Of a stretch of DNA of 64,000 nucleotides, positions 42,353 through 46,052 are shown one piece after another; position 1 is the first letter of the stretch, and each line of letters opens with the position of its first letter. Both the position numbers and the translations under genes were made by a program. The stretch is from Methylophilus sp. 14 (GTDB taxonomy: Bacteria; Pseudomonadota; Gammaproteobacteria; Burkholderiales; Methylophilaceae): assembly GCF_015354345.1 (NCBI RefSeq), contig NZ_JADKYS010000001.1, forward strand, positions 186,001-250,000, written 5' to 3'. A model generated the notes under the pieces. That model was given only the letters and a program-made list of their open reading frames with translations, was not told where the DNA came from and did not search any database.

Positions 42353-44533
42353 TTAGAGTTTTTCCAGTTTGGCGTATTCCAGCATTAGCGTTTTCAGGCC
42401 AGCACTACCAAAATTTACTTTAATGGTCAGGTCGCTGTTGTTGCCTTCGTAGCTCACCACCACGCCCTCACCAAATTTGCCATGACGCACACTCTGGCCA
42501 ATCTTGAACGGGTAATTGGATTGTGCGCTGCTGGCTTGTGCCACTGGTGCGTGGTATTGACCACCTGCGGCATAAGGCTTGGCCACTGGTTTGCTGTTCA
42601 GGCGCTTGGTCAGCTCGGCCGGGATTTCATCAATAAAGCGCGAGGCAATGCCATAACGCACCTGCCCATGCAGCATACGGCTTTGCGCGTAAGTCAGGTA
42701 GAGGCGTTGGCGCGCGCGCGTGACGGCAACATACATCAAGCGGCGCTCTTCTTCCAGGCCGCCATTCTCGTAGGCGGCCTGCTCATGTGGGAACAAGCCT
42801 TCCTCTACACCGCCGATAAACACGCTATGAAACTCCAGGCCTTTGGCGGCGTGCACCGTCATCAGTTGCAAAGCCTCATGGCCAACATCTGCCTGGTGGT
42901 CGCCTGCTTCCAGGCTGGCGTGGTTTAAAAACTGTGTCAGCAGGTCGGCGTCTTCTTCCATATTATGGTGATTGCCCAGATCCCGGTTGCTAAACGCCAC
43001 CGCAGCCGTGACCAGTTCCTGCAAGTTCTCAATGCGGTCTTCACCCTCTTTGTCGTTCTGGTAGTGCGCCATCAGACCACTGAGGTTGATGACCATTTCT
43101 GCCATTTCACCCAAGGTGATACCGTAGCCCTGATCAACCATTTGGCGAATCAGCGCAACAAAACCATCCAACCCTTTGCTGCCGAGCTTGCCTTCGCCGA
43201 CTTTATTTGTCGCGGCTTGCCATAAGCTGCACTCGTTTTGGCGGGCGGCTTCTTGCAGTTGTTCCAGGCCTCGCGCACCGATGCCGCGTGGCGGAAAATT
43301 CACAATACGCAACAGCGCCGTGTCGTCGTTCGCATTCGCAATCAGGCGCAAATAAGCCAGTGCGTGCTTAATCTCGGCGCGCTCAAAAAAGCGCAGGCCG
43401 CCATAGACGCGGTAGGGGATGTTGGCCGAAAATAACGTGTGCTCAAGAATACGTGACTGCGCATTGCTGCGATAGAGTAGCGCCATGTCGCCCAGCGGCA
43501 CGCCTTCTTTTTGCAGCATGTTCACTTCGTCGACAATAAACTGCGCCTCGTCGGTATCGTTGTAGGCTTCATAAATACGAATCGGCTCGCCTTTGCCTGC
43601 CGAGGTCCACAGGTTCTTGCCCATGCGGTTACGGTTGTTGGTGATGATGGCGTTGGCCGCATCTAGAATATTGCTGTGCGAACGGTAGTTTTCTTCCAGC
43701 TTGACGATATTCTGCACATTAAAGTCGCGCTGAAAGTCGTTCATATTGCCGACGCGCGCGCCACGGAAAGCATAAATACTCTGGTCGTCGTCCCCCACCG
43801 CAAAAATGCTGTTATGCGCGCCACCCAGCAGCTTTAACCATAGATATTGCAGGCGGTTGGTATCCTGGAACTCATCCACCAAAATATATTGAAAGCGCTG
43901 CTGATAATGGGCACGGATATGCGGCTCGCGCTCCAAAAGCTCGTAGCAACGCAATAACAATTCAGCAAAATCGGCCACGCCTTCGCGGTTGCATTGCAGG
44001 TCATAAGCTGCATAAATCTCACGCAATTTCTGGCTGTGGCCGTCATACGCATCCACCGTCTCGGCGCGCAAACCTTCTTCTTTGCAGCTATTGATATAAC
44101 CCATCACCTGCTTGGGTGGATATTTCTCATCGTCGACGTTCATCGCCTTCATCACGCGCTTGATCGCAGACAACTGGTCTGAGGTATCCAGAATCTGAAA
44201 AGTACTTGGTAAACGTGCTTCGCGGTAATGCGCGCGCAACATACGGTTACACAAACCGTGAAATGTGCCCGCCCACATGCCGCGTGTATTAATCGGCAGC
44301 ATGCTGGTCAAACGCGTCAACATTTCCTTAGCCGCTTTGTTGGTAAAGGTCACCGCCATCAGCCCCATGGGTGAGGTTTGACCGGTTTGAATCAGCCAGG
44401 CGATACGGGTTGTCAGTACCCGGGTTTTGCCGCTGCCCGCGCCTGCCAGAATCAGTGCCGAGACATGCGGCAGGGTGACCGCTTGCAGTTGTTTATCGTT
44501 GAGACCCTGAAGGAGATTGGTTTCAGATTGCAT
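42353..44533 (-). CDS. uvrD: DNA helicase II
   Basis: A 726-residue superfamily 1A 3'-5' helicase for nucleotide-excision and mismatch repair. Motifs in order: Q-motif region LNDKQLQAV, Walker A AGAGSGKTRVL, AGTFHGLCNRML, Walker B ILVDEFQDTN, VGDDDQSIYAFRGA, EENYRSHSNIL, TVHAAKGLEFH and VAVTRARQRLYL, with the C-terminal Tudor-like segment. The true start is the ATG at 44533; a longer frame to 44692 runs into intergenic repeat sequence and adds 53 residues of low complexity. Ends just before the nested hairpin. Confidence 0.97.
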   Translation of the reverse strand: MQSETNLLQGLNDKQLQAVTLPHVSALILAGAGSGKTRVLTTRIAWLIQTGQTSPMGLMAVTFTNKAAKEMLTRLTSMLPINTRGMWAGTFHGLCNRMLRAHYREARLPSTFQILDTSDQLSAIKRVMKAMNVDDEKYPPKQVMGYINSCKEEGLRAETVDAYDGHSQKLREIYAAYDLQCNREGVADFAELLLRCYELLEREPHIRAHYQQRFQYILVDEFQDTNRLQYLWLKLLGGAHNSIFAVGDDDQSIYAFRGARVGNMNDFQRDFNVQNIVKLEENYRSHSNILDAANAIITNNRNRMGKNLWTSAGKGEPIRIYEAYNDTDEAQFIVDEVNMLQKEGVPLGDMALLYRSNAQSRILEHTLFSANIPYRVYGGLRFFERAEIKHALAYLRLIANANDDTALLRIVNFPPRGIGARGLEQLQEAARQNECSLWQAATNKVGEGKLGSKGLDGFVALIRQMVDQGYGITLGEMAEMVINLSGLMAHYQNDKEGEDRIENLQELVTAAVAFSNRDLGNHHNMEEDADLLTQFLNHASLEAGDHQADVGHEALQLMTVHAAKGLEFHSVFIGGVEEGLFPHEQAAYENGGLEEERRLMYVAVTRARQRLYLTYAQSRMLHGQVRYGIASRFIDEIPAELTKRLNSKPVAKPYAAGGQYHAPVAQASSAQSNYPFKIGQSVRHGKFGEGVVVSYEGNNSDLTIKVNFGSAGLKTLMLEYAKLEKL

Positions 44534-44681
44534 GCGGGTATTATCGCATGATGTGCAGGGTAATTTTACGGATGGGGTGCTTGTTTTGTGTGTTGCGGTG
44601 ACCTTCGTCATTCCGGCGTCGGCTGGAGTCGAGGCGTGGTGAGATTGCAATAAAAGATTGTTCTTTAGATTGGTTGTTGTA

Positions 44682-44700
44682 GGGGGGGGCATGAATGCCC
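44682..44700. repeat. G-run and small hairpin in the uvrD upstream region
   Basis: Eight G (44682-44689) run into GGGCAT-GA-ATGCCC. Together with the nearby CGTCATTCCGGCG-type sequence (44607-44622), which resembles a common dispersed intergenic repeat, this marks the 44534-45587 gap as repeat-rich. No gene is convincing in this gap. Confidence 0.5.
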
Positions 44701-44729
44701 ACGCGGTTGTGGGTGTTTGTGTGGTTGCC

Positions 44730-44947
44730 TTTCGCCTTTATGGCGAGTTACTTTTCTTTGCTTGCCCAAAGAATAAGTAACCAAAAGAAATGCACCCCAG
44801 CTTCCGCTTATTTCCTGCGTTGCTCGTCAAAATAAGCGCTCGCGAAACTCATCCTAGCGGCCTGCAAAAAACGCAGGCCACCGCGGGATTCGGACAGCCG
44901 CTCGCTTCATCTTATTTTGCCTGCGCTACTCGGCGCGGCAGATGGGG
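44730..44947 (+). repeat. Structured repeat element, copy A
   Basis: About 218 bases homologous to an inverted copy downstream (copy B). Shared blocks in order: TTTCGCCTT, GGCGAGT-ACTTT, AGTAACCAAA, TGCGTTGCTC, CGAAACTC, TCTTATTTTG and CGCTACTC. It starts with a 14-pair hairpin (GTTACTT..CTTTG / CAAAG..AAGTAAC) and holds a second seven-pair hairpin, GGCCTGC-AAAAAAC-GCAGGCC (44859-44879). Open frames across it do not look coding. From memory, similar sequences beginning GGCGAGTTACTTT lie between genes in many proteobacteria, but I cannot name the family. Confidence 0.75.
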
Positions 44948-45047
44948 ACCCCGAACACCATGCGACTGCAACCATCGATGGCTTTAATACAAGAATTACT
45001 TTTTTGAATCGTCCAAACTTCGGCGATGTGAGTTTGGCGAGAATAAT

Positions 45048-45306
45048 CCCATTCATCACGCTGAGTAGCGGAGACAAAATAAGAGTAGAGGGAGCGACTG
45101 TCTGAGCTCCGCAACAAGCCACGAAGTGTGTGGCTTGTCAGGGCGAGTTTCGTGACCGGCTTATGCCTAAGTCCAGCAAAGCATCGGACGAAAGTCCTAA
45201 GCTGAGCAACGCAAGGGAGCCTTTAGGCCGTGATGGCTGGGTGTCGTCCTCTTTGGTTACTTTCTGGGGGACAAGCACCAGAAAGTGACTCGCCAACAAG
45301 GCGAAA
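45048..45306 (-). repeat. Structured repeat element, copy B (inverted relative to copy A)
   Basis: Minus-strand homologue of copy A, about 259 bases, with an extra variable stretch in the middle. Its first hairpin keeps the copy A shape with different inner pairs (CTGG/CCAG instead of CTTTG/CAAAG), and the second is ACAAGCCAC with a seven-base loop and GTGGCTTGT (45114-45138). Five of the seven pairs shared with copy A have changed on both sides. The two copies lie head to head with 100 bases between them. Confidence 0.75.
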
Positions 45307-45473
45307 CGAAGCGCCAAAATAATCAGCAAATGCTGGAGTATCCGGATAAGACTCACCAAAGAATTACTTTGTCCTGCATTCGGAGTACGGTGGTCATGCA
45401 CCTCTGTGTCAAATTAAATTGACGCAAATAAATTATCGGAACTTTTCAAAAGACCTAATACTCATATCAGCAC

Positions 45474-45572
45474 GATGATGATGAATCATCTTTCCGCTTC
45501 TTTCCTCCCTGAGCGGAAGCCTTTACGATGAGGCCTGTTGCCCCGATTTACCCCTTAATCGGGGCTTTTTTT
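45474..45572 (+). ncRNA. Candidate small RNA with C-rich loop and terminator
   Basis: Consecutive hairpins: GATGAT/ATCATC (45474-45490); TTCCGCT/AGCGGAA (45492-45518) whose 13-base loop contains TTCCTCCCT, complementary to Shine-Dalgarno sequences; a small GCCT/AGGC stem (45519-45534); and a strong terminator CCCCGATT/AATCGGGG with seven T. No plus-strand gene ends upstream, so the terminator must serve another transcript. A weak promoter candidate (TTATCG 45433, TAATAC 45456, 17 apart) would start transcription near 45468. Not matched to any known family by eye. Confidence 0.5.
45541..45572 (+). terminator. Strong rho-independent terminator with no plus-strand gene upstream
   Basis: CCCCGATT and AATCGGGG pair over an eight-base loop and are followed by CTTTTTTT. 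It lies 16 bases before the end of the convergent trmL gene. Confidence 0.88.
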
Positions 45573-45587
45573 GCCTATCGTTTTTGA

Positions 45588-46052
45588 TTACACGCCGCCG
45601 GGGAACCCTGTTTGACGCCAGGCTTCATAGAGCAGAATGGCGGCGGAGTTGGATAAGTTGAGGCTGCGGCTGTGTGGCAGCATGGGTAGCCTGACGCGGT
45701 GTTCTGGCGCAAACTGGGCGCGGATGTCTTCTGGCAGGCCGCGGGATTCTGGGCCAAACACAAATACATCTTCATCTTGAAATTGTAAGTCGGTATGCCG
45801 CGTGCTGCCTTTGGTGGTGAGCGCAAACATGCGTTTGCCATGCAGTGCTTGCTGGCATTGGGCCCAATTTTCATAGACCTTTAGCTCGGCGTATTCGTGG
45901 TAGTCCAGCCCGGCGCGTTTGAGGTGTTTGTCTGATAGCTCGAAGCCTAAGGGTTTGACTAAATGCAGTTTTGCACCAGCGTTGGCGCATAAGCGTATGA
46001 TATTTCCCGTATTCGGCGGAATTTCTGGTTCGAAAAGCACGATATGAAACAT
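45588..46052 (-). CDS. trmL: tRNA (cytidine/uridine-2'-O-)-methyltransferase TrmL
   Basis: A 154-residue SPOUT-class methyltransferase that 2'-O-methylates the wobble base of certain leucine tRNAs, using SAM. Trefoil-knot motifs are present: LFEPEIPPNTGNIIRLCAN at the start, FVFGPESRGLP and the C-terminal RLPMLPHSRSLNLSNSAAILLYE. Length matches E. coli TrmL (157). It is divergent from the pilus operon with 88 bases between. Confidence 0.96.
   Translation of the reverse strand: MFHIVLFEPEIPPNTGNIIRLCANAGAKLHLVKPLGFELSDKHLKRAGLDYHEYAELKVYENWAQCQQALHGKRMFALTTKGSTRHTDLQFQDEDVFVFGPESRGLPEDIRAQFAPEHRVRLPMLPHSRSLNLSNSAAILLYEAWRQTGFPGGV

Follow-up and report, generated by a model that had tools for sequence, protein, structure and literature searches.

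Several described systems share traits with the element reported here. Like it, the REP, BIME and REPIN sequences associated with RAYT are extragenic inverted palindromes that occur in many copies and often lie at gene ends; unlike them, its ends are multi-helix domains of about 230 bases with a predicted pseudoknot, no linkage to a RAYT was seen, and genes may lie within a unit. MITEs and other non-autonomous transposons likewise combine inverted ends with presence/absence variation and no enzyme of their own, and terminal inverted repeats are found in our element as well, but neither a target-site duplication nor a parent transposase was found for it, and its fold is apparently selected across the class. 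Neisserial NIME and Correia-type repeats are intergenic mosaic repeats, as is the element within one genome, whereas the element has a conserved fold and occurs across many genera. Integron cassettes are mobile single genes that recombine at attC sites, which fold from a single strand; folded sites and single genes are also combined here, yet each unit has two inverted ends. The OMEGA and HEARO RNAs of IS605-type elements are structured RNAs at the element end beside the flank, an arrangement that the element shares, but no TnpB hit was obtained in its own genome and it has no Rfam match. Finally, telomerase RNA, SAM-II, preQ1-II and ENE stability elements adopt triplex folds in which a U-rich linker sits in the major groove of a stem rich in A-U pairs. 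The element ends would likewise be H-type pseudoknots with a U-rich linker, differing in that they bound a bacterial repeat as a pair and are read from sequence alone; we know of no sequence relation between them and the known triplex pseudoknots. In the open-licence literature, at the level of titles and abstract openings, no description of the repeat was recognised. Because the element did not fall into any of the nearest families tested, we rate it as new, relative to a literature limited to open-licence papers.

The window, that is, the whole stretch of DNA analysed, comprises 64,000 nucleotides of Methylophilus sp. 14 (contig NZ_JADKYS010000001.1). The original prediction had described two head-to-head, diverged copies of a structured element in it, and both are present where it had placed them. 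We find that they are the homologous, inverted halves (A and B) of a single unit of 579 bases at window positions 44729-45307. New here are the recognition of the copies as halves of one recurring unit, the predicted pseudoknot of the ends, in which a third strand covaries, and the mosaic, variably present and sometimes gene-holding character of the unit. In our judgement there is an even chance that the element is an interspersed, non-autonomous, cassette-like mobile repeat whose folded ends are recognised by a putative trans-acting factor. Its features, in window coordinates, are the following:

44679-44706, plus strand: REP-like palindrome that abuts the A end, absent beside some copies
44729-45307, unstranded: whole element, 579 bases, with 27 two-half units in its own genome
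44729-44960 (inner limit approximate), minus strand: A half; the proposed folding strand is the outward-reading one, here minus
44732-44746, unstranded: terminal hairpin P1 of A, TCGCC/GGCGA
44747-44794, minus strand: A end, with stem 44747-44760/44767-44781 and one bulge
44783-44790, minus strand: predicted third-strand stretch of the A end, with a weak pseudoknot partner near 44791-44794
44828-44919, unstranded: A inner stem, CAAAATAAG at 44828-44836 with CTTATTTTG at 44911-44919, around the variable hairpin
44856-44882, unstranded: variable 27-base hairpin of A, the second hairpin of the original prediction
44961-45047, unstranded: centre between the halves, the site of genes in longer relatives
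45048-45307 (inner limit approximate), plus strand: B half; the outward-reading strand is plus
45113-45139, unstranded: variable 27-base hairpin of B
45165-45201 (limits approximate), unstranded: extra module in the window B copy, from the copy alignment
45242-45289, plus strand: predicted B end pseudoknot, TGTC at 45242-45245 with GACA at 45270-45273
45248-45255, plus strand: predicted third strand of the B end, with stem 45256-45267/45278-45289
45290-45304, unstranded: terminal hairpin P1 of B, TCGCC/GGCGA

The element is flanked by a uvrD-like helicase frame (42353-44692, minus strand) and a TrmL-like frame (45588-46052, minus strand), both names being putative and read from the translations. 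No coding signs were noticed in the frames inside the window copy. Across the window, only tRNA and anti-hemB reach the Rfam gathering cut-off, none of them on the element, and relaxing the E-value threshold to 5 adds nothing credible over it, the matches being weak and unrelated. The terminal hairpin P1 is Watson-Crick paired in 269/275 cells over 63 termini, the best pairing having been chosen by script. The inner stem is swapped as a block in other copies of the alignment, which have AAAGTGGG/CCCACTTT or CTTGCCGGGCG/CCCGCCAA types, and the extra module at 45165-45201 interrupts the 3' arm of the B inner stem, a minority of copies having such a module.

In the 3.0-Mb genome, blastn matches half A at 55 places and half B at 61, from which 27 units with both halves (526-629 bases) were assembled, plus fragments. 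The copy alignment holds 27 of 29 units, one having been left out as truncated by a contig end and one as lacking a B half; several contigs of this genome terminate within element copies. With a covariance model based on 63 termini and covering the 78-base end, the own genome yields 61 termini, and the range over 22 genus genomes, among them the own one, is 0-61, with 150 candidates scored per genome. The copies are strongly recombinant in appearance, with four gametes in 7703/10585 site pairs and an Rm of 43. At six loci (L033, L040, L041, L028, L103 and L078), short left-end fragments directly adjoin full copies, as if insertions had recurred at one point.

Presence of the element varies between congeners at the same position. 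The trmL-uvrD gap holds element halves in 6 of the 15 genomes with both anchors (Methylophilus sp. 14 and five others, one truncated) and is empty in the other 9, gap sizes being 77-270 bases; six further loci could not be anchored. Two further gaps are filled in some congeners and empty in others, one gap has the element in opposite orientation in two species (G015 and G016), and copies in the same gap of different genomes differ in their inner modules. The empty gaps are too diverged for alignment, so that exact insertion points are not readable from them. In two congeners (G004 and G006; loci L230 and L237), an ordinary terminator-like hairpin and a T run stand where other species carry the element. 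In two others (G002 and G003; L231 and L232), the unoccupied gap holds TTTGCCTACA(T/G)GCGAAAAG, which resembles the element's two outermost arms joined via a short loop and, going by this resemblance, is possibly a deletion footprint.

Five long units have both ends and a gene between the halves. The enclosed genes encode the Shedu protein SduA with a GIY-YIG protein, a DpnII/MboI-type nuclease, a methyltransferase, a DUF2059 protein and a 202-aa protein with no family match. The halves of these units align over most of 260 bases, with local scores of 53.5-136.5 obtained without a shuffled control, and because three of the five gene-holding regions were picked for their spacing, the frequency of such units is not inferable from them. 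A Pfam search of seven open reading frames from six distinct long units, two further frames of units having been left out, found no transposase, and no autonomous copy was seen. At another locus (L101, 4386-5778), rdgC lies between two facing termini, of which the left one is weak (E 0.012); for this reason RdgC is not taken as certain cargo.

The variable hairpin of each half (hairpin 2) exists in 59 distinct versions among Methylophilus-type loci, all of 27 bases, in most of which long arms enclose a loop of seven bases. Paired changes in this hairpin had been the core of the original prediction and are borne out in the window, where GGCCTGC/GCAGGCC in A (44856-44882) and AAGCCAC/GTGGCTT in B (45113-45139) differ in five of seven pairs, each time on both sides. 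Over the 59 distinct 27-mers, covariation is 0.642 compared to 0.347 in shuffles that ignore ancestry (0/500 as high; slid controls at most 0.246), and two-sided cells number 152 compared to 60.7 (0/500 as high); the covariation score, the two-sided cells and the cells paired lie above all 500 shuffles and every slid control. Two other measures, the number of pairs with two-sided changes (9/10, reached by 132/500 shuffles) and the number of pair types (reached by all 500), are uninformative because shuffles reach them. Hairpin 1, the end stem, is present in both window copies as had been claimed, with one C.A mismatch on the inward strand of B (GTCAC/GTAAC). In 63 sequences across taxa, 7/13 of its pairs show two-sided changes, a number reached in 0/500 shuffles that again ignore ancestry, and its pair types are reached by 90/500. 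The covariation of both hairpins supports the earlier claim that selection acts on structure rather than on protein.

Predicted pairing extends beyond the hairpins. The end hairpin has a loop that matches sequence further downstream, and the matched sets include TGTA/TACA, TGCC/GGCA, TCGC/GCGA and TGGC/GCCA, among others. Over 30 loop types, a loop matches its own partner at 4.27 bases and shuffled partners at 3.31 (0/2000), and in further termini the values are 4.30 and 3.07 (0/3000 shuffles), the shuffles in each case not being tree-aware; a match of three bases is missing in 5/64 termini. The linker between the stem and this partner repeats the purine strand of the stem in mirror order and tracks its changes, such that AAAGAAAA goes with AAAAGAAA and AAAAAGAA with AAGAAAAA, and in further termini AAGAGAAA with AAAGAGAA. 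The mirror, or third-strand, score is 5.27 compared to 3.39 in shuffles (0/5000), with 4.43 for the direct-repeat alternative, and in further termini, under a slightly laxer scoring rule, 5.70 compared to 4.25 (0/3000), these shuffles likewise taking no account of the tree. The 73 non-redundant termini were reduced by hand to 64 (nine were misparsed, truncated or duplicate) and to 63 by leaving out L041; the pseudoknot test covers 58 of the 63, five having been dropped for a stem score under 8, including the window A end. The further set consists of 53 distinct termini of 75 hits, outside the alignment and several from the same genomes, which were found with models containing the stem but neither the loop nor the linker pairing. 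The Methylophilus A type, which is the window's own and has a bulged stem, is weak, with 2/9 in the mirror test.

On the outward strand, the pyrimidine linker runs parallel to the purine strand of the stem, which is the rule for U.A-U and C+.G-C triples. Each end can probably form an H-type pseudoknot with a parallel third strand, as both hallmarks of an H-type triplex pseudoknot, a covarying loop pairing outside the hairpin and a third-strand match, are found at the level of sequence. At two loci of one genome (L190 and L213; G182), a T-A inversion in the stem (CAAATGAAAG) goes with a G in the linker (AAAGCAAA); the G.T-A triple is a known exception to the pyrimidine triple code.

Mispairs bear on the question of which strand folds. 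Read on the inward strand, A.C exceeds G.T in hairpin 2 by 28 to 1 in columns 2-10 (27 to 25 in column 1), the wobble cells sharing ancestry in that 23/28 lie in column 3 and many come from one haplotype. In the end stem the excess is 10 to 1 (6 to 2 in further termini), with 9/10 wobble cases at a single position, the loci concerned coming from six named groups as well as from the own genome. An excess of A.C on the inward strand amounts to G.U on the outward strand, and standard pairs fill 94.7% of hairpin 2 cells outward versus 89.8% inward. The folds of the window copy, with z-scores of -3.79 (A) and -2.70 (B) inward and -1.95 (A) and -2.89 (B) outward, give no support for the outward strand, as A stands out more inward and B is about equal. 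Outward folding energy was dropped as evidence: outward folds better than inward in 33/36 halves from other taxa and in 54/54 own halves, the latter without a control, but letter-shuffled versions of the 36 differ equally (-8.1 vs. -8.0 kcal/mol). We prefer the outward strand mainly because of the third-strand geometry, which fits RNA and single-stranded DNA alike; as DNA, each strand's own 3' end would carry the fold. Both DNA and RNA, as the original prediction had allowed, are compatible with the data.

The paired changes could also arise in functionless dispersed palindromes, in which template-switch repair would change both arms together and conversion would spread the variants. Mosaic copies with near-perfect arms fit such a process, yet repair of arms explains neither the loop match outside the hairpin, nor the mirror-order linker, nor the wobble bias, and we consider this explanation improbable.

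Related sequences in other proteobacteria, which the original prediction had mentioned, are indeed found. Scanning named genomes for an exact pattern yielded 75 stretches, in taxa that include Methylophilus, Lysobacter, Stenotrophobium, Pseudoxanthomonas, Xanthomonas, Variovorax, Thiobacillus and Psychromonas. The covariance-model search with copies counted per genome, which had been put forward as the way to check the prediction, detects the end at E 1e-4 in 94/370 genomes of the class (79/273 genera), the other 276/370 giving no match at that threshold with at most 12 candidates scored each, and in a phylum sample at E 1e-5 64/397 genomes match, 61 of these in the same class. The large genome searches scored 11-12 candidates per genome, so that copy numbers there are lower limits. 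The facing arrangement also recurs in other taxa, in 70/78 adjacent terminus pairs closer than 6 kb, with 62 under 720 bases, although some loci overlap (e.g., L185 and L210) and some pairs are thus counted twice. A Fusobacteriota megaplasmid (Ilyobacter) has 6-7 element places, and no facing partner lies within 3 kb of the one that was read. Among plasmid records, four match the window element and nine match the 66-base end, with one record common to both; the matches occur only in replicons of at least 260 kb, the smallest being three Pasteurella records of 260-325 kb and the remainder 0.67 Mb and larger, one of them of 4.9 Mb. There was no match to two blastn queries in 50,697 phage records, no stretch for two strict exact patterns in viral contigs, and no match to one 66-base query in E. 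coli records. A viral origin was set aside on the basis of the viral contigs and phage records, although divergent copies could escape such queries. In a large replicon of Pseudoalteromonas piscicida (L262), three end domains follow each other in the same direction about 750 bases apart, and the end model found no opposite end there.

The main rival to mobility is a use of the element by the host at 3' ends: convergent transcripts would end in the outward triplex pseudoknot or at weak terminators, blocking 3' exonucleases or antisense read-through, and copies would spread by ordinary recombination. Gene context, taken from long open frames (cut-offs of 90 and 100 aa) rather than annotation, places 17 of the 27 copies between convergent frames, 6 and 3 between co-directional frames and 1 between divergent frames, compared to 6 convergent pairs among the 48 adjacent frame pairs of the window. 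A terminator scan of 44500-45620 gave 5 sites versus 1.5 in shuffles, of which three, weak sites whose stems have 5-6 pairs, fall within the element. The ordinary terminator-like hairpins in two empty gaps, the absence of phage-record matches and the restriction of plasmid matches to large replicons are also consistent with host use. Both host use and a mobile cassette predict the convergent-gene bias, as selection against promoter damage gives it as well, while the range of 0-61 termini within the genus and the 276 class genomes without a match suggest that the element is dispensable, and some units enclose genes. The gene-holding units, together with the filled and empty gaps, lead us to favour mobility, and we regard a host role at 3' ends as unlikely, if still a serious contender.

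With respect to the means of movement, the element could be of the REP, BIME or REPIN type and moved by a RAYT (Y1 transposase), the GTAG-headed palindrome at the A end being the REP. Besides the inverted pairing and the extragenic position, this is suggested by the GTAGGGTGGGC..GCCCACGCG palindrome itself, of which 10/10 exact consensus matches in the own genome adjoin A ends, and which is close to the H. influenzae REP as given in PMC2817692; the window's variant at 44679-44706 falls outside the exact consensus pattern. The palindrome is missing beside some copies, and it merely abuts certain A ends, the element itself ending in TTTCGCC..GGCGAGTTAC and not in a REP head. Nor is a cognate RAYT apparent: the only Y1_Tnp match in the own genome is below the cut-off (20.9 vs. 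23 bits) and not beside the element, no element end occurs in the 21 Y1 loci fetched with about 1.5 kb on each side, and the element-rich congeners G008 and G016 (61 and 56 termini) have no Y1 match at E 1e-3. We accordingly give RAYT-driven movement little credence.

A transposon end that acts through a guide RNA, OMEGA/TnpB-like or bridge-RNA-like, in which the outward RNA would take its guide from the flank, is to our mind improbable. An outward structured RNA with a pseudoknot beside the flank does resemble such RNAs, but TnpB (Cas12f1-like_TNB, PF07282) matches in 1/22 genus genomes and the IS110 transposase (Transposase_20, PF02371) in 2/22, neither of them in the own genome. Reverse transcriptase (RVT_1, PF00078) likewise has no match in the own genome and matches in 6/22 genus genomes. 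As movers, RAYT, TnpB, IS110 and reverse transcriptase are thus unsupported in the own genome by family matches. No target-site duplication above shuffled pairing was found in 26 copies at fixed offsets (k 3, 4, 5, 6 and 8). That neither a mover among these families nor a duplication was found is the main weakness of the mobile reading. Also against it, 44500-45620 shows no promoter-like site, so that the outward transcripts are only proposed.

If the element is a mobile repeat, each end would fold, on the outward strand, into an H-type pseudoknot: the pyrimidine linker (UUUCUUU) would occupy the stem's major groove, where it would run parallel as a third strand held by U.A-U and C+.G-C triples, and the terminal hairpin P1 would come next. 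Whether it consists of RNA or of the 3' end of single-stranded DNA, this structure would be what an enzyme provided in trans recognises when it copies or moves the unit. Recombination between dispersed copies would swap whole stem modules and produce mosaics, and survival would be favoured in 3'-to-3' intergenic gaps, where insertion breaks nothing. More tentatively, and at somewhat less than even chance, we propose that the element represents a separate class of bacterial mobile elements, common in Gammaproteobacteria (in the GTDB sense), with inverted triplex-pseudoknot ends as RNA or single-stranded DNA signals, a putative enzyme of a new type, and single-gene cargo that includes phage-defence genes.

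Detected in a quarter of the sampled class genomes but matched by no Rfam family, such a fold would represent a structured element that is both widespread and undescribed. If its ends serve as mobility signals, they point to a new machinery of transfer with defence genes among its cargo; if they are instead the ends of RNAs, they would be a bacterial counterpart of the triplex stability elements. The code of pairs and triples makes both readings directly testable.

Beside the element, the Rfam family anti-hemB (RF02837), an sRNA that was first named in Burkholderia, matches the window at 45491-45572 with 52.9 bits, compared to a cut-off of 49.5, and the stretch around it (45460-45580) aligns in 15 genus genomes, the own genome included, with identities of 91-100%.
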